Below are positions 3,946 to 46,968 of a stretch of DNA of 46,968 nucleotides, piece after piece. Both the position numbers and the translations under genes were made by a program. The notes under the pieces were generated by a model. It was not told where the DNA came from. It did no database searches and saw nothing but the letters and a program-made list of their open reading frames with translations. Position 1 is the first letter of the stretch. Every line of letters begins with the position of its first letter. Source of the DNA: a virus; IMG/VR virus record IMGVR_UViG_3300027675_000009, positions 1 to 46,968 of that record; one strand, given 5' to 3'.

Positions 3946-4489
3946 TTGTAACATCCTTTACAAAGTATGTGCCCGCCTCTCTGAAGCCGAGCTTTTGTGA
4001 CATCTTCCCGAATAGACGCACTTGCTTGTCACTCTGCTTATCGCGTACTAGAGCCACGATAAACCGTACACATCCTCTCAACGCTCCCCATTGTAGGAAC
4101 TGTTTGAGTAGTAGAAAGGCCACTGGACTTCCACGATACTGTTTATCGACATACCATGCGTTGGATATGGCGAACTTGTCAGTAGATATGAAGAACGTAC
4201 TAATCGACCCAATAAAGAAACCAACGGGTATCCCGTCACGATATGCGGCCCACCCATTGTAGTTAAGCCGTTCGGGATCAGCGAGCTTATAATCTGCATG
4301 ACTCAGTACCGCCTTCATATCAAAGTGCAAATCGGTGTGTATCTCTTGATGTGCTTTTCTAAATAGCGGCTCAAGTGTGTAGAGATCATCGTGTGTTAGC
4401 ATCTCACGAATGTCGTACCAACTACCTGCTGCCTTAAGTCTTTCGAGGCGGCGCTGTTTATGTGTGACTGTACTACTTTCGAGTTGCAC
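3905..4489 (-). CDS. GNAT-type acetyltransferase-like virion-region protein
   Basis: The start is GTG 4489 (MQLESSTVTHKQRR), with GGAGG seven bases upstream; a TTG at 4510 is also in frame but has no ribosome site. The 194-residue sequence has the GNAT layout: a Trp/Tyr strand followed by GIPVGFFIGSISTFF (strands 3-4), then a YVDKQYRGSPVAFLLLKQFL segment matching motif A (R/Q-x-x-G-x-G/A followed by a helix), and a late KLGFREAG strand typical of motif B. GNAT proteins of this type recur among internal or tail genes of podoviruses; substrate unknown. It overlaps the upstream fibre gene by 17 bp and is probably translationally coupled. Confidence 0.7.
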   Translation of the reverse strand: MQLESSTVTHKQRRLERLKAAGSWYDIREMLTHDDLYTLEPLFRKAHQEIHTDLHFDMKAVLSHADYKLADPERLNYNGWAAYRDGIPVGFFIGSISTFFISTDKFAISNAWYVDKQYRGSPVAFLLLKQFLQWGALRGCVRFIVALVRDKQSDKQVRLFGKMSQKLGFREAGTYFVKDVTNAPSMDDRSGKAS

Positions 4490-6929
4490 CTGTAGCCTCC
4501 AGTGTTTCAATACGTCCCATTGCCTCTTGTAATGCGCTAGTTAGTGCAGCAATAACTGTCCATTCATTAGGACACTGTATCTCACCCTGAATATCCTTAT
4601 AGCCATTAGCGGCAGTCTCAATTAACGTAGCCTGTAGTTCGTGTGCGATAAATCCCCAATGTTCTTTATCACTAGCTGCGATGAATGGAGTAACCTCTCC
4701 ACCCTTAGCGAGTGCCTTACGGTTCGCTTCTTCCCAAGGAGGTGTCCAATCTGATTGCTTAAAGCTGATCGGACGAAGTTGCTTAACAATATCCCACTTC
4801 GACGGCAGGTCTACAACATCAGTCTTGATACGATAATCCGAGTACATCTGGATGAAGCCCATCGTCGTATCATCGATGTGGCATCGTACCGCTCCAGCGT
4901 AGTCGAAGTTAAAGTGATTACCTCCTTCATTACGATTAACGCCATCACGAGTCTTATATCCAAGTGCGTGCATCGTGCTATTCATACGCACTTCGGTACT
5001 ATGGATTTCCAATTTATGAGAGGCATCAACTAGTAGCCTCGCACAGTAATCCTCACCATGTCCCGGATGCCGTAGATCGATGAAGTACGGACCTTCGATG
5101 GAGCCTACAGTTATTGCGCCGCTAGTATTAATAGTTCCTGCACTATTAGCATATCCCGCACTATCCGCATAGCCCGCGCTAGTAGCCTTACCATTTAGCG
5201 CACCATTAAAGCTCTGTGCATGAACAGGTCCGCTAAAGTGTGCAGAGTTATCGTGATAGTACATAGTAAAGCGAACAGCACCAGCACTCTCATCTGTTAT
5301 TCTAAAGTGCCCATCATACCAGCAGCCATTAGACCACGCACGTACACCTGACACCGTATGCATCAGTCGAGCATTATGCCCATTTGGTACAGTGTGCCTA
5401 ATTCCATCACTCCATGTACATGTGATGGCATCAGACTTAAACTCCGATCCAGTAGCCGAACCTAGAGCAGACACAGAAGCAGTGAGCGCACCACAAATAA
5501 TCGAATTACCCTCAGTAGTGATAGCGCCACACTTCAGTTGTCCTCCACGCAGATTGAAGTTTATTCCATCATAGTAGAGATACGTCCCACCACCATTACC
5601 GCCCTGACCGAAATAATAGACACCTGTAGTTAGCGCGTTGGCACGATAAGCATAGACATCACCAGCAGACGCTAGACCATTAAGGAATGATGCCCCATAA
5701 ACATGAAGACCAGCTAGATACGATATTCCATTTTGACGATTAATGCTGAAAGAGGCACCAAGACTATTGCCCGCATCATCGTAACGACTGATATTAAAGT
5801 TCGACCCCGCACTACCGCCCGTCTCACTTGCGGTGTCACCTATCTCTACAGTCCAACGGGGAAGACCACTACGATAGCCTCCGAGTACGGCATTCTGTCC
5901 GCTACTAGTTTTATCGAGAATGAGAGCCGGACTAGCTTTAGCAATAATCAAGTTGCCGGTCATTGTGTCGCCGGTATCGTTGACCTTATTATCACTCCCT
6001 CTATCGGCGTATTGCTTAGTCACTGCTCCTAGTACATGTACTGGATCTTCTGAGAGGATTAAGCGTCCGGTCATCGTACTACCGGACTTTGCTACCTTCT
6101 CATTATCGAGTTCGTTCAATGCATCTTGAACAGTAGTCGAGGATAGATCACCTGCGGGAGTAGTAGGCAATACGTCCGCACTAGTCGCAGCAACAACAAT
6201 CCAGCTACCTCCATCTACAGCGTCATTAGTACGTCCATAAGTCGCGCCAGTAGTAGGAGGCTCTTCGATGATACCTTGGTCGCCTTTCGGACCTTCTGGA
6301 CCTACTGGACCGATAAATCCGATCTCTCCTTGTATACCTTGCTCACCCTGAATGCCTTGTGGCCCACGTTCGCCGCTAACCGTAATCAACCAATCCGCAT
6401 ACGTACCCGATCCGCTAATAACATCGACATCTACTACCAACTCCGCTCCACTATAACTAACAACCGATCCCCACATGTACGTATTTACAGGATCGCCACC
6501 GTAATTAACGATGATCTTCGATCCTGCACTAAAGATACGCCCCGTCTGTGTCTGAAATGTATGATTACCTAGACCAATAGTGACAGGTGTAATAGACGTA
6601 CCAGATAGGGAGTGGATAAAGTCTACTGGATGCCAATATGTAGGATGATTAGCTCTATCCGTTGCGAATAGTGTAGGAGCCGGTGCGCTCTTATGAGCAA
6701 CGTGACACTCGAATGCGAACGCTACATCGATATCAACAACGAGATCACCAATTAAGTAGTCTCGGCTGTTCTTCCATATACCTTTAAGGTTATCTGATCC
6801 TGTCATCAGGTATAGGATAGAGTCGATGGTCTTGATATTACGATCATAGTAGACATGCCAACTAGGGAAGTCGAATGCTGGCAATTCTAGATCAAAGTAT
6901 TCCGTATATTCTCTGACTGCCCCGGTCAT
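4473..6929 (-). CDS. Tail fibre with collagen-like repeat and S74 chaperone domain (818 aa)
   Basis: ATG 6929 overlaps the tail-tube B stop (ATGA). Residues ~48-102 form a carbohydrate-binding-like module (WKNSRDYLIGD, then FECHVAHKS). Residues ~185-220 are collagen-like Gly-X-Y repeats, followed by GDTMTG beta-repeats. The last ~120 residues are an intramolecular chaperone (peptidase S74, endosialidase type): SDYRIK supplies the Ser and Lys of the self-cleavage dyad, followed by LRPISF, HWGFIAHELQ and a terminal coiled coil (LQEAMGRIETLEA). The family trimerises beta-helical fibres and then cuts itself off just before that Ser. It is a host-recognition protein at the tail tip; it shares the C-terminal domain with the fibre at 18389-20803. 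Confidence 0.92.
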   Translation of the reverse strand: MTGAVREYTEYFDLELPAFDFPSWHVYYDRNIKTIDSILYLMTGSDNLKGIWKNSRDYLIGDLVVDIDVAFAFECHVAHKSAPAPTLFATDRANHPTYWHPVDFIHSLSGTSITPVTIGLGNHTFQTQTGRIFSAGSKIIVNYGGDPVNTYMWGSVVSYSGAELVVDVDVISGSGTYADWLITVSGERGPQGIQGEQGIQGEIGFIGPVGPEGPKGDQGIIEEPPTTGATYGRTNDAVDGGSWIVVAATSADVLPTTPAGDLSSTTVQDALNELDNEKVAKSGSTMTGRLILSEDPVHVLGAVTKQYADRGSDNKVNDTGDTMTGNLIIAKASPALILDKTSSGQNAVLGGYRSGLPRWTVEIGDTASETGGSAGSNFNISRYDDAGNSLGASFSINRQNGISYLAGLHVYGASFLNGLASAGDVYAYRANALTTGVYYFGQGGNGGGTYLYYDGINFNLRGGQLKCGAITTEGNSIICGALTASVSALGSATGSEFKSDAITCTWSDGIRHTVPNGHNARLMHTVSGVRAWSNGCWYDGHFRITDESAGAVRFTMYYHDNSAHFSGPVHAQSFNGALNGKATSAGYADSAGYANSAGTINTSGAITVGSIEGPYFIDLRHPGHGEDYCARLLVDASHKLEIHSTEVRMNSTMHALGYKTRDGVNRNEGGNHFNFDYAGAVRCHIDDTTMGFIQMYSDYRIKTDVVDLPSKWDIVKQLRPISFKQSDWTPPWEEANRKALAKGGEVTPFIAASDKEHWGFIAHELQATLIETAANGYKDIQGEIQCPNEWTVIAALTSALQEAMGRIETLEATGATRK

Positions 6930-18118: not shown

Positions 18119-18414
18119 TTCTTGTCCTTTGGCATTTTAATCATTGCTGAGTTTGGTAATGTAGTCTTCGATGGCAGCATTCCATCAGGAACGCCGCTGA
18201 TCGATAGCCTTAGAAACTCTTCAAGATTAGATAGCTTTACATAAGCCGCTCTGAGTTCCTGTTTACTAAGTGCCCTTTCCTTTGTATTATCATTAGTATA
18301 AGTCTCACCAAAGAATACACGAACAAGCGGATCAGGTGACTCCAGCTTCGGTATTTCGCTTATATTCTCTTCAATAACAATATCACATTCAAACCGATAC
18401 GGTAGTGTTGCCAT
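18115..18414 (-). CDS. Hypothetical protein downstream of a tail fibre (99 aa)
   Basis: ATG 18414 lies inside the last codons of the fibre gene (26-bp overlap), so expression is probably coupled to it. The sequence mixes short strands (YRFECDIVIEE) with a Lys/Arg-rich helix (KERALSKQELRAAYVKL) and has no membrane span. A fibre partner or assembly helper is possible by position only. Confidence 0.65.
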   Translation of the reverse strand: MATLPYRFECDIVIEENISEIPKLESPDPLVRVFFGETYTNDNTKERALSKQELRAAYVKLSNLEEFLRLSISGVPDGMLPSKTTLPNSAMIKMPKDKK

Positions 18415-20803
18415 CTATCTTCTCCAGACGTTTCATGACTTCCTGTAATACCTCAACGACAGCAGCAAGGACAGGCCACGCATCAGGAGACTGAATAACT
18501 CGTGGTGCATCCTTATATCCCGTTGCAGCACTCTCTACTAATGTACTCTGTAGCTCGTGAGCAAGGAAACCCCATCTCTCCTCGTCATCATCTGCAATCA
18601 AAGGCTCAAGCAGATTATGGCCCATTGGAGAGTACTCACGCCGCGTGTAGCTAATCGGACGTAATGCCTTAATCTTATCCCACATACGTTCTAATGGTTG
18701 GATATTCTTCTTAATTCGATAGTCTGATGATGTTGTGATATAACCTGCGAATGTATTATCCACCCACAACCGCATCAAACCAGTCCAATCCATGTTGAAT
18801 GTATTACCTCCATAATTGGTACCGGGATTACCGTCTCTGCATCTATAACCACCACCGCCGAATGTCGTTGAATAAAAGCCCGCACGAATGTCCCCACTAG
18901 ACTCTAGATACGGCGTCTGAAGACCATGTAGATACTCAACTCGTCCTAAGTCACCCCTCCACCGAAACCAAGTGGTGTCGTAATACATAAAGATGTAGCC
19001 GTTATCAGCATGTACGCTGGCGGATGCATGAAGCTCATTGAACGTCATATCATCGCCAGTACGCGCTATCCATTTACCTTGTGAATACAGATTACCGTGT
19101 GGGAAGTAGTAATAATAACCATCCTGCCACGAGATATAATGACCACCAGATGATAGATAAAGAATATTACCATGTGCAGATACATTTCCATTAGAAACGA
19201 CAGTACTTGCCGTCAATGTACCACCAACAGTAGTAGTTGACAAATTAACTGCACAGCTTCCAGCGTTAAAGTACATCGGAAACAAGCCCTTCCAACCACC
19301 ATCTGGATCACCTGCATTTGTCACTAGCCAATGGAAATTACCATCATCGAAATACTGTATAACACTATAACTACTCGCACGACAGCGAAGGAACTCCCCT
19401 ACAAAAGTTGTCTGTACCTGACTTAGTGTTAACCTACCAGTAAGGGTATGCTGATTATTAGCCAATAGAGCCAATCTACGTGCTGGTTCTCCTGCACCTG
19501 TAGCAAATACTAAATTCCCAGCTTCGGCAAACATCATTGCATTATTAGCACCATCCTTAAGTGCATAACCACCGCCCCAGCTACCCGAAACAGTCATTGC
19601 ACAAGTAGCTAGTGCATTACCATTACCAGTCGCCGTAATCTTACCATTCACCTGTGCTAGATTGCCGCTTTTTAACTGAAGTATTGCTGCTCCATCACCA
19701 ACAAGATTAAGTGAACTACTCGTAACCGTGATACCATACGCGGTACCCCAAACTGCAATGTGTCTACTGAGATTAGTCGGAACGTCGCCGGGAGCAATGT
19801 CTGATCCAAATGAAAGACCACCAGACAGCGCACCACCAGTTAGTGGTAGGTACGCTCCACCTACTGATACCTTACTATCTACATATTGTTTAGTTGCTAT
19901 ACCTAATGCAACAGTTGGATCTGCGCCAACAGTAACCTTAGTGCCCGTTAGTTGCAGAGTGTCAGTGCTGACCTCGTACATTATACGCGCTTTGGAGTCG
20001 ATTGTGCCAGTAGAGAAATCGATGATCGATCCAGTTGACCCAACTAATTTAATTTGCGCGTATCCCGCTGCATAACCAAGCCGAATGCCATCGGTTGTTA
20101 GAGCGCCAGTGACACCTCCTGCGACGGTTAAACCGCCAGTCATCGTATCACCGGCTTTTAGTACTCTCAGTGCATCTTGTGTATCCACATATCCTTGAGA
20201 CGCACCACCACTCTGCACTACCCACTGTGTATTGAAGTCAGCATTACTTATCTTCGCTAATACCTGATTAGTCGTACCACCGGGAGGAACACCGGGGCCT
20301 GCTGGTCCTTGTGGTCCTGCTGGTCCTTGTTCTCCTTGTGGGCCTACTTCACCCTGTTGTCCTTCATACGTAACAACGAAGGACACCACTTGGTTATTAC
20401 TAAATTCCGCATCACCCTCAATAAACTGCACTGGTACCTGAAACCAATCAGGCATAATCATCGCAGGACCAAGCAGCTTCCACTTCTGATAGTTAAGCGA
20501 TAAATCCTTATCTTGTATTATAAACGTATCACCAAACTTCATCGTTGTGAATAACGCTACAACGTCGAAGCCGTCTGTAGTCTGCCAATCCATGTATAGT
20601 GTTTCCGCACTATTCTGCGGAGTTGAACTATATCTATACTTACCAGCACCCGGATCACTTGCTCCTGTAGACTGTGCATCACACCGATAATCAAATACCG
20701 AAGACGACGCACCGGGCTTTACCTCAGCAAATATGTCATCGACATACTGCTTAGTTGCAGCATCCTTCGCATATCTCGGTGTGTTGACGTGCTGTCGGAA
20801 CAT
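18389..20803 (-). CDS. Second tail fibre with collagen-like repeat and S74 chaperone domain (804 aa)
   Basis: Residues ~153-180 are collagen-like (GPQGEQGPAGPQGPAGPG), followed by GDTMTGGLTV and LTGGALSGGL beta-repeats and a long Gly/Thr/Tyr-rich shaft. The last ~110 residues are a peptidase S74 chaperone: SSDYRIKKN contains the Ser/Lys dyad, then LRPISYTRREYS, RWGFLAHELQSTLVES and a terminal coil (LQEVMKRLEKID). It parallels the fibre at 4473-6929 in C-terminal layout but not in its N-terminus, so the two may attach at different places or bind different receptors. It is remote from the other tail genes, next to lysis. Confidence 0.92.
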   Translation of the reverse strand: MFRQHVNTPRYAKDAATKQYVDDIFAEVKPGASSSVFDYRCDAQSTGASDPGAGKYRYSSTPQNSAETLYMDWQTTDGFDVVALFTTMKFGDTFIIQDKDLSLNYQKWKLLGPAMIMPDWFQVPVQFIEGDAEFSNNQVVSFVVTYEGQQGEVGPQGEQGPAGPQGPAGPGVPPGGTTNQVLAKISNADFNTQWVVQSGGASQGYVDTQDALRVLKAGDTMTGGLTVAGGVTGALTTDGIRLGYAAGYAQIKLVGSTGSIIDFSTGTIDSKARIMYEVSTDTLQLTGTKVTVGADPTVALGIATKQYVDSKVSVGGAYLPLTGGALSGGLSFGSDIAPGDVPTNLSRHIAVWGTAYGITVTSSSLNLVGDGAAILQLKSGNLAQVNGKITATGNGNALATCAMTVSGSWGGGYALKDGANNAMMFAEAGNLVFATGAGEPARRLALLANNQHTLTGRLTLSQVQTTFVGEFLRCRASSYSVIQYFDDGNFHWLVTNAGDPDGGWKGLFPMYFNAGSCAVNLSTTTVGGTLTASTVVSNGNVSAHGNILYLSSGGHYISWQDGYYYYFPHGNLYSQGKWIARTGDDMTFNELHASASVHADNGYIFMYYDTTWFRWRGDLGRVEYLHGLQTPYLESSGDIRAGFYSTTFGGGGYRCRDGNPGTNYGGNTFNMDWTGLMRLWVDNTFAGYITTSSDYRIKKNIQPLERMWDKIKALRPISYTRREYSPMGHNLLEPLIADDDEERWGFLAHELQSTLVESAATGYKDAPRVIQSPDAWPVLAAVVEVLQEVMKRLEKIDGNTTVSV

Positions 20804-38242: not shown

Positions 38243-38463
38243 TTAGCAGAGATAAGGGCACCGTAGTATTTAACTGCGATAATTGTAGCGAACACTTCAC
38301 AATAGATAGCGACGACTTCTACGACACACTCAATGCACTTAAGAAGACGAAGTGGCAATTCCAAAAGGAAAAAGACGGCGGCTGGTCACATTACTGCCCA
38401 ACCTGCGTGGAGAAAGATGATGAACTCAAAGTATCTGATAGTCATACTAAACGGACCAAGTAA
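38239..38463 (+). CDS. Small zinc-finger protein (74 aa)
   Basis: ATGA overlap with the helicase. CDNCSEHF (residues ~14-21) and CPTCVEKD (~53-60) are paired Cys knuckles; acidic middle (DSDDFYDTLN) and basic end. It overlaps the start of the kinase gene by 47 bp. Possible helicase or polymerase accessory, not shown. Confidence 0.7.
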   Translation: MISRDKGTVVFNCDNCSEHFTIDSDDFYDTLNALKKTKWQFQKEKDGGWSHYCPTCVEKDDELKVSDSHTKRTK

Positions 38464-39094
38464 GGTAGGTAAGACAACGATTGCTGATAAATTATGCGGA
38501 ACAATGAGCCATCCGTATGGTATACTTAACGGTAGACACTTCATATGCTGGCACATGAAAATGATTGAGCCCGTCCGCGACGCAGTTATGGCTATGTTCT
38601 CTCTCGATCCTTATACATTTGAAGATAAGAAAGACGTACCGATACTTATAAATGACATGACACCTAGACATGCGGTTATAGCGGCCGATATATGCATTCG
38701 GCGCGCATTAGGCGCGGGATATCTAGGTGAGATACTAAGCGTGGAGATACGACAATCACTACATAAGTCTACCTCGTTCTTACATGACAATCCGTGGAAC
38801 ATCTTTATCGTTGATGCTGGTGTGAAGGCTGAAGTAGATGTACTTCGACACAACTTCACTAAACACGTAAAAGTCTTACACGTATATAGAGATGGCTTAG
38901 ACTTCAACGATAGCAGACATTACATTGAACCGGCCGAAGCAGTTGTGGAAAACGCTATCGGTCAGCTAAATGCGACCGTCGATAAGATCCTACTATTTAT
39001 TAACGGCTGGATGGAGGGACTAAGTGATCAAGGGGATAACAGAATTACAACAGGAGTTCCTGAAACGAGCGAGATCGATCAACCTCAAAGTTGA
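38417..39094 (+). CDS. Deoxynucleotide monophosphate kinase-like protein (225 aa)
   Basis: The true start is ATG 38417 or the adjacent 38420, behind GGAG; the open frame back to 38333 overlaps the zinc-finger gene and looks false. A P-loop near the start (VILNGPSKVGKTTIADKL) and the kinase-type layout fit dNMP kinases of the T4 gp1 kind, which raise dNTP supply, in keeping with the adjacent polymerase and MazG genes. The fold is clear, the substrate inferred. It overlaps the polymerase start by 71 bp. Confidence 0.75.
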   Translation: MMNSKYLIVILNGPSKVGKTTIADKLCGTMSHPYGILNGRHFICWHMKMIEPVRDAVMAMFSLDPYTFEDKKDVPILINDMTPRHAVIAADICIRRALGAGYLGEILSVEIRQSLHKSTSFLHDNPWNIFIVDAGVKAEVDVLRHNFTKHVKVLHVYRDGLDFNDSRHYIEPAEAVVENAIGQLNATVDKILLFINGWMEGLSDQGDNRITTGVPETSEIDQPQS

Positions 39095-41486
39095 CTGCGG
39101 TAGTGATGGTACATTTAATAGTGAAGTTGCGATAGTAGCTGAAGCTCCCGGCCCTCGTGAAATTCAACTTAGAACACCCCTCGTCGGTGGTAGTGGTTCA
39201 TTCTTATGGTCTGCACTTAAGAAGCACGGCCTCCACCGATCACAGTTCTATATAACGAATGTGGTTAAGAGACAGCTAGCCTTCGGAGGTCTAGATGCTA
39301 ATAAGGTCCAACTGCCGAAAGTTGAATATGACCACTGGGTCGGATTACTTAAATGGGAATTGGCATGTCTACCAAACTTGCGCTATGTGCTGCTTCTCGG
39401 AAACTTTGCCCTCGACGCTCTCTGTAATCGTAAAGGAATTACCAAATGGCGCGGGTCTGTTCTCGATTTTGAAATGTTCTCACTCGCTGAGTCTCAGCCG
39501 CGCACCTACAAAGCAGTCGTAGCAAACAATCCCGCCGCGGTTATACGAGAACCAAAGACTGAGATTGCATTTATAATGGATGTTGCTAAACTTCCCAAAG
39601 TTATGTCGGGTAAATGGAACCCATACGTAATAGAAGGGACAGTGTTAGATGACTACAAATCAGCAATCGAAAGGATCGAATACTTCACACATACTCCTAA
39701 GCCAATCAGCTTTGATATCGAAACGGGAGGTGGGGAAACAGCCTGTATTGGGTTGGCCGATCATAAGCATATTGGGTTTTGTATTCCATTTAGAAACATT
39801 CGAGGTGAGGATTACTTTTCTATCGAGGAAGAAGCTGACATTAGAATGCGGTTGCAACGAATGTTTGCAAAGCCAGATCGAAAGTTCGTCGCACAAAATG
39901 CGAACTTCGACATGTATTGGCTCTGGCTTAAAGATAAAATCAGAGTTCATGCGGCGTGGTTTGACACCATGTTGGCGCACCACTGCTTATATCCCAGTAT
40001 CCCCCACGATCTTGGATTTCTTTGTACACAGTATACAACGCATCCGTATTATAAAGATGAAAGAGCAGAGTGGAAAGATAAGGGTGATATTGACCTTTTC
40101 TGGCAGTACAATATTAAGGATGTTTGCATTACACTTGCAGTACAAGAACGACTCGTAGAGGAACTACGTAAGCAGAATATGTCTGACTTCTTCTTTACAC
40201 ATATAATGAAACTCCAACCTCACTTAGTACTGATGACAGCAGGAGGAGTACTCATTGATGAAGACGAAAAAGAGTTCTTCAGGCAGGACGTACAAGAAAA
40301 GGTCGCCGGACTCCTATCTCAATTCCATCAAGCTGTTATTACTGCAACTGGAGATGACACGTTCCGCCCTAACCCAAACAGTGTCAAGGATCGAAGCGAA
40401 CTTTACTTCCAGCGACTTAAGCTTGTCGGAAGAGGCACTTCAACAGATGTTTCTAATAGAGAACGAATGCGAAGTCACGCTCGTACGCCTGATGCTGCAA
40501 AAGAAGTCCTTAACCTCCACGATCAATGGGCTAAGGAATTTAAATTCTTATCTACGTATGCGGAGAGTGAGATTGATGATGATGGAAGGATGCGATGCGA
40601 GTGGCGTCAAACTGGTACGCAAGCTGCTCCCGGCCGACTAAGCAGTGGACAAACACTAATCGGCACGGGAGCCAACTTACAAAATCAACCTACAAAGGCA
40701 AGGAGAATGTTCATAGCAGATGAAGGTTACGTGTTCATTTACTTTGACTTATCTCAAGCCGAAGCTAGATACGTAGCGTGGGAAGCTGGAATTGAAAAGT
40801 GGAAAGCTCAATTCGAACAAGCAAGATTAGATGGAAGCTACGACTGTCACCGTGCTCTCGCCAGTGAGATGTTCAACGTGGCGTACACAGATGTCCCCAC
40901 CACTGATGAAGATGCAAGTGGGAATAAAACGATCAGATTTATTGCGAAGCGATGCAGGCACGGGCTTAACTACAGGATGGCTCCTGACAAGCTTGCCGAG
41001 ACTACGGGCCTCCCGTTGCATAGAGCCCATGAGAGCTACGTTCTGTACCATCGCCTTACACCTGAGTTGCGTAAGTGGTGGGCAACGCTTGAAAACGAGG
41101 CCCGTTCCACTCGGATGCTGTACAACGCTTTCGGTCGTCGCCTGTACATCATGGAGCGTCTTACACCAGAAGCATTAGAAAGTATAGTAGCCTTCAAACC
41201 GCAGAGTACGATTGGAGATAAGGTGTCGCGTGTCATCTACCAGTGTCATGAAGATGATAAATGGGACATGAAGAAAGAAAGGATATGTCTCAACGTCCAC
41301 GATGCTTTAGTCGGACTTGCTACTATAGATAGAGCTAAGTCGTGCCTCGCTATTATGAAGAAGTACGCAGAAGAGCCAATCTTTATTCGTGGTGAGCCTA
41401 TGATAGTGCCTGCTGATCTAGCAATGTCTTACGCAGATGAAAAAGGAAAACATCGATGGTCGAACCTGAAGAAGCTGAAGCTATGA
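39024..41486 (+). CDS. Family A DNA polymerase with N-terminal uracil-glycosylase-like domain (820 aa)
   Basis: GTG 39024 follows GGAGG. Residues ~25-190 resemble UDG superfamily (family 4/5): AEAPGPREIQLRTPLVG, FYITNVVKRQL, YVLLLGNFA, and VVANNPAAVIREP, where Asn169-Pro replaces the usual His-Pro; only C25 and C115 of the iron-sulphur cysteines are in place. The proofreading exonuclease follows: D231-x-E233, NANFD296, Y362-x3-D366. Polymerase motif A has D575 (FDLSQAEAR), motif B R638 and K642 with H646 at the ddNTP-selectivity position and R651 after Y650, motif C VHDAL (H759-D760). It is the replicative polymerase. The end overlaps the MazG gene (ATGA). Confidence 0.93.
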   Translation: MIKGITELQQEFLKRARSINLKVDCGSDGTFNSEVAIVAEAPGPREIQLRTPLVGGSGSFLWSALKKHGLHRSQFYITNVVKRQLAFGGLDANKVQLPKVEYDHWVGLLKWELACLPNLRYVLLLGNFALDALCNRKGITKWRGSVLDFEMFSLAESQPRTYKAVVANNPAAVIREPKTEIAFIMDVAKLPKVMSGKWNPYVIEGTVLDDYKSAIERIEYFTHTPKPISFDIETGGGETACIGLADHKHIGFCIPFRNIRGEDYFSIEEEADIRMRLQRMFAKPDRKFVAQNANFDMYWLWLKDKIRVHAAWFDTMLAHHCLYPSIPHDLGFLCTQYTTHPYYKDERAEWKDKGDIDLFWQYNIKDVCITLAVQERLVEELRKQNMSDFFFTHIMKLQPHLVLMTAGGVLIDEDEKEFFRQDVQEKVAGLLSQFHQAVITATGDDTFRPNPNSVKDRSELYFQRLKLVGRGTSTDVSNRERMRSHARTPDAAKEVLNLHDQWAKEFKFLSTYAESEIDDDGRMRCEWRQTGTQAAPGRLSSGQTLIGTGANLQNQPTKARRMFIADEGYVFIYFDLSQAEARYVAWEAGIEKWKAQFEQARLDGSYDCHRALASEMFNVAYTDVPTTDEDASGNKTIRFIAKRCRHGLNYRMAPDKLAETTGLPLHRAHESYVLYHRLTPELRKWWATLENEARSTRMLYNAFGRRLYIMERLTPEALESIVAFKPQSTIGDKVSRVIYQCHEDDKWDMKKERICLNVHDALVGLATIDRAKSCLAIMKKYAEEPIFIRGEPMIVPADLAMSYADEKGKHRWSNLKKLKL

Positions 41487-42103
41487 CACTCTTCACAGAA
41501 GATATGGTGCATAAGGCGAGATTTGATAATGAGTTTTCAGTATACCAATATCGAACATCAGATACAGCAGTATATCCTAATGACACTGCACTACACTATC
41601 TCGCGTTAGGTATCTTCGGAGAGTGTGGTGAGATCGCTAATAAGGTTAAGAAGCTCTTAAGAGGCGATTACGAAGGCAAAGGAGTAGATGCACATAACAA
41701 ATTCGTCGATGGGATTATAGACGAGTGCGGAGATGTGATGTGGTACTGTGCTCAGCTACTCTTAAAGACGAATACAGACTTCGGGAACTTAAGTAAGTAT
41801 GAAACGTTTGAAGAATACAGTACCTCTCAAAAGAAACTAGCCTCAACTTATACGAGTGGTCCCGCTGAAATTGTACTTCAGCTTGGTCGTAGTGTAGGCT
41901 ATCTCTCTGATATCATTGGCGGACAGGGCTTCAACGATGAGTACATCGGAGACGTTACCGCCTGCGTCATGTCAATCACTCAGTCTATTTGTCTCTTATC
42001 ACTTGTACTTGATCGCCCTTTTACATCTATCTTCACACTTAACCTGGATAAACTTAAGGAACGTCAAGGCAATAACACAATCAAAGGAGACAACCGTGGC
42101 TAA
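41483..42103 (+). CDS. MazG-like nucleotide pyrophosphohydrolase (206 aa)
   Basis: ATG 41483 overlaps the polymerase stop; the upstream in-frame ATG 41456 lies inside the polymerase. The metal motif is LALGIFGECGEIANKVKK (E-x2-E) and IIDECGDVMWYCAQLL (E-x2-D), the mark of all-alpha NTP pyrophosphohydrolases. The second half has a second, helical pack ending in LNLDKLKERQGNNTIKGD, usual in phage MazG-like proteins. It may clear modified or wrong nucleotides, or blunt (p)ppGpp-type stress. Confidence 0.87.
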   Translation: MTLFTEDMVHKARFDNEFSVYQYRTSDTAVYPNDTALHYLALGIFGECGEIANKVKKLLRGDYEGKGVDAHNKFVDGIIDECGDVMWYCAQLLLKTNTDFGNLSKYETFEEYSTSQKKLASTYTSGPAEIVLQLGRSVGYLSDIIGGQGFNDEYIGDVTACVMSITQSICLLSLVLDRPFTSIFTLNLDKLKERQGNNTIKGDNRG

Positions 42104-42428: not shown

Positions 42429-42631
42429 CTAAAGGCGAAACACTAGTACGTAAATCCTTCAATCCTAGCTCCAACCCCGATGTAGAAGAGATCAAGCAAC
42501 GAGCAGCAGACTTGATTGACTGCATTGAGGCGCATAAAGATAAAGATCCCCGTCTAAGTGCCCTCGCTATCACCAGCTTCGAAGAGGGTGCTATGTGGGC
42601 TGTTAAGTTGGTGACTACAGAGAGTAAGTAA
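42425..42631 (+). CDS. Acb2/Tad1-type hairpin protein, anti-CBASS/Thoeris sponge candidate (68 aa)
   Basis: The KSFNPSSNPDVEEIKQRAAD start and DPRLSALAITSFEEGAMWAVKLVTT end, enclosing two helices, match the Acb2/Tad1 hairpin (DUF7681) family as I recall it: the ExxxMWAVK helix is its most constant part. Family members oligomerise and bind cyclic nucleotides made by CBASS or signals of Thoeris, so they blunt host defence. Here it sits between a small helical gene and the primase-type ATPase, four- and one-base overlaps. Ligand is inferred. Confidence 0.78.
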   Translation: MTKGETLVRKSFNPSSNPDVEEIKQRAADLIDCIEAHKDKDPRLSALAITSFEEGAMWAVKLVTTESK

Positions 42632-44052
42632 TGCTGAGCATTACAGCCCCGAAGGATAGCTATATCGAACTCTTCATGTCTCTACTAAAGGATCAAGAGA
42701 CTCCGAGTGAGTATGACTTCTGGGCTGCTGTCTGGACTATAGGAGCCGCTGTAGGTCGATCATGTTACATCGACAGGCCGCGCGCTCCTATTTTCTTTAA
42801 CTGGTACATAGTCATATGTGCTGAGAGCGGTATGACACGTAAGTCCACCGTGATTAATTTCGCGAACGATATACTAGAAGGTTGCCTACCAGAATGTGCG
42901 GATATTATACAAAATAAAACCACCCCTGAAAAACTCTGGAGTTTGATGGCTAATAGGAGTGGACAATATGGCCGAAGTCACATCGTACTTAATATATCCG
43001 AGATGGTTACATTCTTCGGACGCGAGGGATATTCGATGGGGATGCCCGTATTGCTCACGGACCTTTATGATTGTCCTACAAAGCGGGAAGGAGGAGGTTC
43101 CGTTAACTACGGGACACTTCCCCTCATTAATCCCTTTATTACACTCATCGCAGGTAGTACACCGAGCTGGCTTGCGAGAGCTATTAATCCTGATGTCATC
43201 GAGGGTGGCTTCACATCCCGTGTTATCTTCATCAATAGTGACTACAGGAAAAAACTAATCTTCTGGCCTGATGAATTAGCTAGACCTAATATACAAGCTG
43301 CGAAGGAGTATTTAAATGCCATTCGAGATCATGCTGCCCGACTACACACTATCCAACCTGATGAAAAGGCGAAAGCGTTTCTTACTAAGTGGTACGGGAC
43401 TCGGACTTTTAATGCAGACACTTACAGTCGCAGCTTTGAGAGCCGAGAAGATAGCCACGTTCTTCGGCTCGCCGGTACCCTCGCTCTTAGTCAACTCAAA
43501 TCCTCTATTGGGCTTAGTGAGGTCGAACTGGCGCTTTATGCTATTTCAAGGGCAAAGAAGTCTGGTCGTTCGATCTTCAAATCAGCGGTATCTAATCTTA
43601 GACTTGCAAACGGGCTCGATAAGATACGGGAAGTCCTCTTGAAGCGTGGACTTAACGGTATCAATAATAAGGAGCTACATCTACGTGTACGCTACCTCTT
43701 AGGAACGATGGATTATAACGGAGTGATGGATATATTAATAGATACTGGTGCAGTGAGAATGTATCAAGTAAGTAATAGACGAAGTGAGAAAAGCTCGCGC
43801 TTCACTAAGTACTTCATGGCTACAACGAAGATACTAGATAAGAAGATCTGGCACGAAGTCTTAAGTCGAAGTGGACAGCTTAACGAGGACGTTCATCCCC
43901 AGCCTGACGAGACGAAGCCTGTATTGCCTTCGTCAAATTCTCTGGCGTTAGAGGACCATACTTCGACTCAAAAGCCTTCCCATTCGGACTTGTCTTCATT
44001 ACCTTCCATTGATCTGAGTATATCGTATACATCCGATGATCTAGATCGTTGA
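42631..44052 (+). CDS. DUF3987-like primase/helicase ATPase (473 aa)
   Basis: ATG 42631 shares a base with the previous stop. The nucleotide-binding region ICAESGMTRKSTVINFA (~residues 67-83) is the G-x4-R-K-S type Walker A of DUF3987 proteins, and HIVLNISEMVTFF a Walker B with SE. It ends the replication arm and is the only primase-helicase-like gene seen. The last ~60 residues (Ser/Pro/Asp-rich, SSLPSIDLSISYTSDDL) are encoded antisense to the end of the giant virion gene, hence likely a recent extension. Confidence 0.78.
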   Translation: MLSITAPKDSYIELFMSLLKDQETPSEYDFWAAVWTIGAAVGRSCYIDRPRAPIFFNWYIVICAESGMTRKSTVINFANDILEGCLPECADIIQNKTTPEKLWSLMANRSGQYGRSHIVLNISEMVTFFGREGYSMGMPVLLTDLYDCPTKREGGGSVNYGTLPLINPFITLIAGSTPSWLARAINPDVIEGGFTSRVIFINSDYRKKLIFWPDELARPNIQAAKEYLNAIRDHAARLHTIQPDEKAKAFLTKWYGTRTFNADTYSRSFESREDSHVLRLAGTLALSQLKSSIGLSEVELALYAISRAKKSGRSIFKSAVSNLRLANGLDKIREVLLKRGLNGINNKELHLRVRYLLGTMDYNGVMDILIDTGAVRMYQVSNRRSEKSSRFTKYFMATTKILDKKIWHEVLSRSGQLNEDVHPQPDETKPVLPSSNSLALEDHTSTQKPSHSDLSSLPSIDLSISYTSDDLDR

Positions 44053-46968
44053 TCTTCTTCGCTTGTCCTTGCGCTGCAATGTGACGCTGGAGTGGGGATT
44101 GTGGGATGGATGGATCACTGCCTACCGTCATAGCCTGATGCTGAGATCGAGCTACGTCACGGGCCTCCTTGAGCTTTAGATAGGGGCCTGAGAAGAATGC
44201 GACGTGTACCTGAGCCATGAGCGCACGGACATTGGGATCATCTACAGGCGACCCTACAACGGCTCCCGGAGCCACGTTCGTCTTCTCTAGTGTGTTGATC
44301 CTAGCATTAGGCGTCAACGCTCTCCGCACCCCCGGCTCCGCTGACATCTGTGCTTCCACACCATTCTTAAGGATAGCCATATCCTTCTGCAACTTCTCAG
44401 CAATCGGTGTGTAGATGTAACGACGAGAAGTCTCAGGCCAAATGTGATGAGTAATCGGACTACCGATAGAGAGTGATGTACCGAGCTTACTCGCGCCTTC
44501 TGTAATACCCTTCTCTATAGAACCTCCCTTAGTCCTAGTATGTATATCGCCAACGTTAACACTTTCGAGCATCGATGTTAATACAGTACCGAATGCTCCA
44601 TTAAACGTATCATACCACGCATGAGGAATACGTGATTGTGGAGACATCTTATCTTTATTCGCTCCACCAAAGTTGAAGTCTTTAATATCTCTAAATGGCG
44701 ACTCCATGTTTGTTAGTTTACCGAGTTCAATCTTCTTACCAAACTGTCCTGCTACACCTTGCACGAGAGGGGGAGTAGCTAAGCCAAAGACTGCATCTCT
44801 CGCTTGCTTCATATCCTCAGAGAGTGTCTGAGGCACTACCACATCCTTATTCTCGATAGCACCAACTCCCCGCATGAAATGGATGACGGGTAATACCCAT
44901 ACCATCATTTCAGGTTGCATAGGGATAAGTATATTCTCTTGTTCTGGTGTTCCTCGTGGTACATCGATGCCCATCATACGCGGAAGGAAGCGAATAGGAT
45001 TAGGGATCGGTATATTCTTCGACCTTATTTCATTCGGTAGTTCGTTATAGAACCACTGACTACTCTCTTTATCCGAACCGACTTGATTATAGGCCCATGC
45101 AGCAACAAGACCGAAGGATGCAAGTCGCGTGATGTTCTCCGCAGGTGCCTCCTTTATACGCTGCTTCATATAGCGGATAGACTGTTGCGCTGGATTAGAC
45201 CACGGGAATATAGAGACGAGTTTCTGTATCGCTGGATTACCACTAATGCGCGCCATATCACCACCGATAATACGAGCTTGATCGGCAATGAACTCTTCGG
45301 ACATTTGTTTAGCTTGTTTACGTCCCTTAGCTACCTCGCGTTTAAAGAGATTAGTGTTCTGCGATAACGCCATCGTCTTAGGTGCATCTATCATCACCTG
45401 TAGCATCGATAGATAACTATTAGCCGCCGCTTTATACTCAGGACGCTTTGCAGTGATAGCGTTGATCTTCTGTATCGTCGATAATATCTCATCACTCGAA
45501 TTAGCTACTTGTCCCGTCTTATACGCCTTAGTTAGATTGGTCCAAGAGGTATCGTAGGCTTGAGACATAGCCTTAGCCAACGGGCCTAGTATCTGTTGTG
45601 CTCCCGGTATCTTACCAATACCCGTCCTCGCAGCTAGATCAGCTTCCCACCTTTTAGCGAGGATATTCCCCCCAAACTCTGAGATCGCTGCCTTGATTGC
45701 GTAGTAGGGATAAGAGGCGAATACGTTAATAATCGCCTCCGGTCCCGCTGCAATCGCGCTAATAATACGTGCGTTCACACTACCCATGCCGAACATGCGA
45801 GCAGCGGAATAGCTGATAGGTCCATAGGCCATCTTACGATGACGGAGCAGTGAACCAGACAACATGTCGTATATATTACTGGTGAATAGACCAAACGATG
45901 GTGCTCCGGGACCAGTGATAAGTGCCTGCGATATCTTACGTACCTCATTCATTACAGGTACTACCGCAGCAGGAGCGAACTTAAGCATCTCATCGATATG
46001 CTTCTCATTATGCCTTACTAATATAAGCGAACCATTCTCTGCTCTATATGCATAATGAAATCCAGCAGCATTACCCTTTCCGTCTATCTTATCTTGTACC
46101 CATTTAAGCTTATCTCGTATCTGGTGTTCTGGAATGGTAGCTACGACTTCGAGATACTTCTCATTAGCGTTCTTCGGTGCGCTCTTCATCATCTCAGTGT
46201 AGTCGCTCATCGCTCTATTCTGAGCTATAGCCTGACGTACACGCTGAGACATATGACTTAGTTCAGCGAATGGATCAGTGGGATTATTCACACGAGGATG
46301 TGGTTCGAACCCAGGTGCTGGAGAGTAACGCGACTCCCCACTCGCGTTCATATACCCCTTACGTACCTTATCTCTAGTTGCTGATCGGTAGAGACTAAGT
46401 ACCGTATTGGGATCGGAGTTAACGAGATGCGGTGAGTATGCCTCTTTAGCTAGATGTGTCTGTCTCTGTAGCCATGTCTTCTGAGCAAGAGGATTATCCG
46501 TAAGATGATAATTCCCCTTACGTACATCCATCTTCATCCGATGTGCTTCGGAAGGAGACATCGTAAATCCAGCTACAGCTTCATCGAATATGTCATCATA
46601 CCTACTATGAAGCTGAGCCTCGATCTGCTTAATCTTCGGGTCTTGTGAGGACTGCCTTAGTCGCGCTTGTACATCAGCACGACTCTCTGTCATCATCGAA
46701 TGCCGTAAATTCGGATCGGCATCATGACGACGCATAGTCTGCTCAGCCTGAAATGCATTAACCTCATCCTGCAACTTTTGTATCTTCGCCGCATTCGGTC
46801 GCTTGCTCGCTTGTGCTGCTGCTAATTCAGCTTGCGAGTCGTTGAGTAACTTAGTAGTCCTCGCGATTGCCTCCGTATCACCCCAACTGCGATACTTATC
46901 AGCGAAATGCTGAGTCACCTTATTAATAAACGCTGGATCTTCTCTCGTAAACTGTTCGACGATAGGAG
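43880..46968 (-). CDS. Giant virion/ejection protein, C-terminal part (~1029 aa)
   Basis: The frame is open from the window end down to the stop at 43880 and continues the gene at 1-1288; total about 1409 residues. Long helical regions dominate: a coiled coil near the join (AELAAAQASKRPNAAKIQKL), a polar-to-hydrophobic helix set at ~residues 340-440 of this part (ISAIAAGPEAIINVFASYPY), then IFPWSNPAQQSIRYMKQRI and an aromatic PNPIRFLPRMMG stretch that recall the LPD38-type region of large phage internal proteins. I infer a DNA-ejection protein that inserts into the host envelope; no catalytic motif is seen. The last 173 bp overlap the convergent primase gene. Confidence 0.8.
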   Translation of the reverse strand, partial: PIVEQFTREDPAFINKVTQHFADKYRSWGDTEAIARTTKLLNDSQAELAAAQASKRPNAAKIQKLQDEVNAFQAEQTMRRHDADPNLRHSMMTESRADVQARLRQSSQDPKIKQIEAQLHSRYDDIFDEAVAGFTMSPSEAHRMKMDVRKGNYHLTDNPLAQKTWLQRQTHLAKEAYSPHLVNSDPNTVLSLYRSATRDKVRKGYMNASGESRYSPAPGFEPHPRVNNPTDPFAELSHMSQRVRQAIAQNRAMSDYTEMMKSAPKNANEKYLEVVATIPEHQIRDKLKWVQDKIDGKGNAAGFHYAYRAENGSLILVRHNEKHIDEMLKFAPAAVVPVMNEVRKISQALITGPGAPSFGLFTSNIYDMLSGSLLRHRKMAYGPISYSAARMFGMGSVNARIISAIAAGPEAIINVFASYPYYAIKAAISEFGGNILAKRWEADLAARTGIGKIPGAQQILGPLAKAMSQAYDTSWTNLTKAYKTGQVANSSDEILSTIQKINAITAKRPEYKAAANSYLSMLQVMIDAPKTMALSQNTNLFKREVAKGRKQAKQMSEEFIADQARIIGGDMARISGNPAIQKLVSIFPWSNPAQQSIRYMKQRIKEAPAENITRLASFGLVAAWAYNQVGSDKESSQWFYNELPNEIRSKNIPIPNPIRFLPRMMGIDVPRGTPEQENILIPMQPEMMVWVLPVIHFMRGVGAIENKDVVVPQTLSEDMKQARDAVFGLATPPLVQGVAGQFGKKIELGKLTNMESPFRDIKDFNFGGANKDKMSPQSRIPHAWYDTFNGAFGTVLTSMLESVNVGDIHTRTKGGSIEKGITEGASKLGTSLSIGSPITHHIWPETSRRYIYTPIAEKLQKDMAILKNGVEAQMSAEPGVRRALTPNARINTLEKTNVAPGAVVGSPVDDPNVRALMAQVHVAFFSGPYLKLKEARDVARSQHQAMTVGSDPSIPQSPLQRHIAAQGQAKKINDLDHRMYTIYSDQWKVMKTSPNGKAFESKYGPLTPENLTKAIQASSRQAGDERPR
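46821..46968. repeat. Terminal redundancy, right copy
   Basis: This 148-base copy of 1-147 has the extra T that keeps the giant gene in frame, so it is the better version. Removing one copy gives a circular unit of about 46,820 bp. Confidence 0.9.

Follow-up and report, generated by a model that had tools for sequence, protein, structure and literature searches.

A family 4-like uracil-DNA glycosylase domain with an altered catalytic pocket at the N-terminus of a phage family A DNA polymerase

Introduction

Why a base-excision domain should reside on a replicase is a question that had already been raised by the DNA polymerase of Bacillus phage SPO1. Fusion of a uracil-DNA glycosylase (UDG) to a family A polymerase (PolA) has been described for SPO1 and Shbh1, and the authors of that study cite the suggestion that the N-terminal UDG domain aids processivity (PMC5135824). 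The window analysed here, a virus record of 46,968 bases, poses the question again with a polymerase frame on the + strand (39024-41486). A set of fused relatives with mostly intact pockets, together with lineages that retain the domain in spite of different losses, makes the question testable.

Results

The polymerase gene (39024..41486, +) starts with GTG, its relatives with ATG, and encodes a UDG-exonuclease-family A DNA polymerase of 820 amino acids. The 3′-5′ exonuclease domain comprises residues 222-381 (39687..40166, +; PF01612, E 2e-11) and keeps the motifs DIE, NxxFD and YxxxD, while the polymerase domain comprises residues 422-782 (40287..41369, +; PF00476, E 1e-29) and keeps DLSQAEAR and VHDAL. 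The motif residues of both domains are invariant in the relatives. A model of the full protein reached a pLDDT of 86, and in a fold search the part following the UDG domain matched Bst/Klenow fragments with Z 33-34. The gene is embedded in a replication cluster of nuclease, Sak4-like ATPase, SSB-like protein, RecD-like helicase and dNMP kinase, which continues after the polymerase with a MazG-like protein and a DUF3987 primase-like protein. The dNMP-kinase-like gene (38333..39094, +; phrog_139, E 4e-15), a neighbour in relatives too, overlaps the polymerase start with its 3′ end by 71 nt. The MazG-like pyrophosphatase gene directly downstream of the polymerase (41456..42103, +; phrog_229, E 3e-19) occupies the same place in relatives, and its presence across the fused-polymerase records searched is scattered. 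The partner most often retained near UDG-PolA polymerases is the DUF3987/primase-helicase-like gene (42631..44052, +; phrog_14296, E 1e-28). A 1012-aa frame on the opposite strand (43880-46918, -) is convergent with the end of this gene and overlaps it. Elsewhere in the window, large proteins encoded at 4473-6929 and 18389-20803 (both -) gave weak tail-fibre matches, the first including a collagen-like minor tail protein.

The UDG superfamily domain was assigned to residues 29-177 (39108..39554, +) by PF03167, TIGR00758 and its fold match to family 4 UDGs; the whole folded unit extends over approximately residues 1-195. PF03167 matched with E 1.1e-13 and 51.9 bits, well above the Pfam cut-off of 24.3. 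The family 4 profile TIGR00758 matched with E 1e-14, its 54.6 bits staying below the NCBIfam cut-off of 125.3, and the sequences of family 4 and UdgX crystal structures matched the domain down to E 1.5e-7. As only the polymerase was recovered when the model of all 820 residues was submitted to a fold search, the UDG domain was folded separately, and residues 1-199 were modelled alone by AlphaFold2 with 31 relatives (pLDDT 93.6). This model matched the family 4 UDGs 4zbx, 1ui1 and 1vk2 with Z ~23 over 177-182 residues, UdgX with Z ~21, and human TDG and E. coli Mug with Z ~14, i.e. it has the alpha/beta fold of the PF03167 superfamily. The initial annotation, which had placed a UDG-like domain ahead of PolA and proposed modelling as a check, was correct in this respect, and the motifs it quoted were found in the 820-aa frame at E40-A-P-G43, Y76-ITNVVK82, L123-LLGNFA129 and N169-P170-AAVIR175. 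A profile search of the whole record revealed no second PF03167 match besides the polymerase domain.

The fusion to a proofreading PolA is genuine. UDG, exonuclease and PolA lie in one chain, as in the SPO1 type, and the same single frame occurs in 12 full-length proteins from separate contigs, the window's own and 11 relatives that are 67-83% identical to it, which rules out a fusion created by sequencing error. More distant fused relatives (L028-L035) were obtained by an exonuclease-domain pattern search that is independent of the UDG part. When the UDG domains of six members of this set served as queries, at least 562 confirmed viral stretches emerged, of which the best 80 were inspected. 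The ORF also had a polymerase match in 77 of these 80, among them L103, which is marginal on the polymerase profile and whose PolA domain was revealed by phmmer. The ORFs lacking a polymerase match were L064, L083 and L088, two of which are cut by the end of the locus. A scan from one single protein matched only itself, and no PolA fusion was seen among the 80 best matches in bacterial and archaeal genomes. The replicase fusion, which had been regarded as unusual, is known from SPO1 and its relatives (PMC5135824) and from PDB 9qhs, and is common in viral contigs. Several frames differ in architecture. A 1126-aa UDG-PolA frame (L098:3995-7372) carries in its polymerase domain an intein-like insertion, which starts CITGDHEVLTPEGW and ends FFLVRRQGKISVTGN. 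UDG-exonuclease frames of ~350-410 aa end with a stop in L059, L061, L071, L076, L104 and L108, and the L064 frame consists of 233 aa with a UDG only. For L059, L071, L076 and L064 the best match to a polymerase was located downstream of the frame, which may mean that the polymerase is divided between two genes.

Two of the four iron-sulphur cysteines of family 4 UDGs had been credited to the domain (C25 and C115). Neither residue aligns with an Fe-S position, and a cluster built from them is ruled out. None of the four positions carries a cysteine in the window clade: Arg/Lys stands where Thermus has C84 and Trp/His where it has C100, and the upstream CxxC is absent. Among the other fused domains, Cys was found at C84 in 1/86 and at C100 in 5/86. 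C25 (39096-39098) and C115 (39366-39368) are nevertheless invariant in the window clade. Loss of the Fe-S cysteines also occurs in free-standing forms and is thus not peculiar to fused UDGs. Many alphaproteobacterial free-standing family 4-like UDGs (within L118-L197) have no CxxC and a Trp in place of the third Fe-S cysteine (C84), and their catalytic pocket is whole.

A MAFFT alignment with Thermus UDGa served to determine the states of the catalytic pocket at E41, F54, N80, N89 and H155, and 11 distinct sequences of the window clade were compared with 82 distinct other fused domains. Motif 1, E40-A-P-G43 (39141..39152, +), keeps the Glu of Thermus E41, and Y76-ITNVVK82 (39249..39269, +) keeps the uracil-binding Asn as N79 (Thermus N80). 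E41, E47, N80 and R161, the Arg of motif 2, are each present in 11/11 clade sequences. The position of F54 in the uracil pocket is taken by L53 (39180..39182, +), a Leu in 11/11 clade sequences and a Phe in 80/82 others. G88 (39285..39287, +) stands at the position of the water-positioning N89, which is Gly in 8 and Ser in 3 clade sequences and Asn in 77/82 others. In motif 2, N169-PAAVIR175 (39528..39548, +), the catalytic His has become Asn, with Pro and the DNA-contacting Arg retained (each of the three in 11/11; His in 76/82 others). The change from HP to NP, for which a conservation check had been proposed, is therefore real and fixed in the clade. With respect to family 4 hallmarks, the motif 1 GE(A/G)PG, here (A/G)EAPG, and the uracil-binding Asn are found, their Glu and Asn being invariant; the motif 2 His, the motif 3 Asn and the pocket Phe are not.

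Among the 82 other fused domains, E47 is kept in 82, N80 in 78, the motif 2 Arg in 73, and E41 in 78, a count biased upwards because the patterns that recruited the main set include GE[AC]PG. F54, N80, N89 and H155 lie outside these patterns, and fully eroded pockets would score lower and hence be under-represented in this set. The sets recruited via the whole protein or the exonuclease contained the intact pockets of L015, L016, L028, L030, L031, L032, L035 and L200 and the eroded pockets of L017 and L018. Judged from the alignment, most sampled fused UDGs have a whole catalytic pocket without the Fe-S cysteines, a point that the initial annotation had overlooked. By the same comparison, the combination of H155N, F54L and N89G/S makes efficient uracil excision by the domain of the window clade improbable.

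A quick tree, built from 64 fused proteins and leaving 17 forks open, showed the window clade as monophyletic, with a stem length of 2.17 changes per column. As the clade stands together on one long stem, the three pocket changes are most simply explained as the history of one lineage. Other losses sit among intact relatives: H155S in L068, H155A in L087, and several in L097 and in L017. The UDG part evolved at a pace similar to that of the polymerase part (mean pN 0.162 vs 0.157), and median dN/dS was 0.05-0.13, values that are rough since dS is near saturation. Strong purifying selection has preserved the UDG fold together with the Asn that faces the uracil, the two Glu residues of motif 1 and the Arg in contact with DNA.

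Discussion

Thermus UDGa uses H155 to stabilise the uracil as it leaves and N89 to position the water. Its H155S mutant showed a decrease of k2 from 2.3e-1 to 7.2e-5 per s, whereas the Km values were 7.6e-7 vs 9.7e-7 M; F54A and N89A cost 17-fold and ~7-fold in k2/Km, respectively (PMC5387724). With k2 down more than 1000-fold and Km nearly unchanged, the window domain would by analogy be expected still to bind DNA yet scarcely to cut it. The published mutants (PMC5387724) are the single changes H155S, F54A and N89A, whereas the clade combines H155N, F54L and N89G/S. In UdgX, the motif 2 Arg touches the DNA backbone (PMC10359453). Because key residues for cutting are lost and the domain is strongly preserved, it probably grips or reads DNA and does not remove uracil. 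Fold, fusion, residue states and conservation are direct observations in the window clade, and the reading of them that we prefer, with a probability of roughly 0.55, is a muted UDG that is poor at uracil excision and serves as a DNA-binding module in cis. The replicase combines a family A polymerase and a proofreading exonuclease that looks intact with a family 4-like UDG domain that lacks an Fe-S cluster and occupies the place of the 5′ nuclease of cellular PolI. Three pocket residues, namely the Phe that stacks, the Asn that positions water and the His that stabilises the leaving group, appear to have been replaced on one long stem. Uracil excision would no longer proceed at a useful rate, and the domain may hold or scan single-stranded template in front of the polymerase and perhaps pause at uracil; it might instead dock onto the polymerase or onto another protein.

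E. coli Mug has an Asn at the position of the motif 2 His. The clade domain might accordingly be a glycosylase that is still active, its motif 2 resembling that of Mug, perhaps with altered specificity and coupled to replication, and its retained motif 1, N80 and Arg would fit such an enzyme. UDG families 2 and 6 are active without the motif 2 His, which counts against a muted UDG; in the clade, however, Phe, Asn and His are lost together, and each single Ala/Ser change is costly in Thermus UDGa (PMC5387724). Cutting on a replicase would moreover put abasic sites into its own template, and we regard an active enzyme as improbable here.

The fold might also persist as a structural relic that recognises no base and serves only as a scaffold, either to stabilise the exonuclease domain or as a docking site for a partner. 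Fused lineages have indeed lost different pocket residues and kept the fold, as seen (in the order E41, F54, N80, N89, H155) in SPO1 (EMSNH), LysYB1 (DMGDH), Serbin (DGPNH), a Desulfofustis phage (DFYNN) and the fully eroded KimJongPhill, and the kept pocket residues of the clade may serve folding alone. The invariance of E41, E47, N80 and the motif 2 Arg in a clade whose members share only 67-83% identity with the window protein is less easily reconciled with a relic, as is the full pocket of most sampled relatives, and we consider it possible but rather unlikely. With the muted UDG in mind, a wider and more doubtful proposal is that Fe-S-free UDG-replicases form a large group with an active glycosylase on the polymerase, from which lineages like that of the window converted the domain into a reader of uracil, catalytically silent and able to pause or steer the replicase.

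The fusion as such is already known, and the joint F54L, N89G/S and H155N of the window clade are a variant of it. SPO1 gp31 and its Spounavirinae relatives share with the window the order UDG-PolA and a partly lost pocket (PMC5135824). The losses differ: in SPO1 the motif 2 His is retained but neither F54 nor N80, whereas in the window clade His and F54 are replaced and N80 is kept. Its relative LysYB1 keeps Fe-S-type cysteines, unlike the window. The fused UDGs of metagenomic phages (L028-L116) resemble the window in the PolA fusion, the absent Fe-S cysteines and, in most, a DUF3987-type gene downstream, but have a complete catalytic pocket in nearly all sampled cases. Family 4 UDGs (Thermus 1ui0, Thermotoga 1l9g, Sulfolobus 4zbx) and UdgX (6ail) share the fold (Z 21-23), motif 1, N80 and the Pro and Arg of motif 2; the window differs in lacking the Fe-S cysteines, in F54L, N89G/S and H155N, and in its fusion to PolA. 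The GEQPG motif and KRRIH R-loop of UdgX were not found either, the domain having EAPG and no KRRIH. The phiLo polymerase (PDB 9qhs) is likewise a phage family A enzyme, part of which matches the window UDG model with Z 14.6 over 158 residues. It has 1142 residues against 820 in the window, and the two match in sequence in the UDG part only. Our literature search found no descriptive text on 9qhs or phiLo.

The title of that entry, 'phiLo family-A DNA polymerase with modified template', would suit a domain that recognises a pyrimidine modification carried by the DNA of the phage itself. So would the distribution of N80 in polymerase-fused UDGs, which was lost in 6/7 records with a thymidylate synthase family gene vs 2/43 without among 50 records searched; this association is a post hoc one, and an intact-pocket query had supplied most of the negatives, which makes it a lead and no result. 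The pocket change of the window clade is of another kind, with N80 kept. SPO1-type phages have a thymidylate synthase family gene and the window record does not: neither in the window record nor in six clade records did profile searches find thymidylate synthase (PF00303), and none of the six matched dCMP deaminase (PF00383). The lead is thus inapplicable to the window clade, and with both enzymes not found in its relatives a modified-base reader is not favoured here; we judge it very unlikely. The nominal Fisher p of the association was 1e-5, or 0.003 after lineages were collapsed by hand, and within the phage database alone the counts were 6/7 vs 2/5. The fused-UDG phages that carry the gene are L018, L019, L199, L201, L202, L203 and L205 (records W04, W05, W06, W08, W09, W10 and W12); the exception among them is ctfzr933 (L199), whose pocket is intact.
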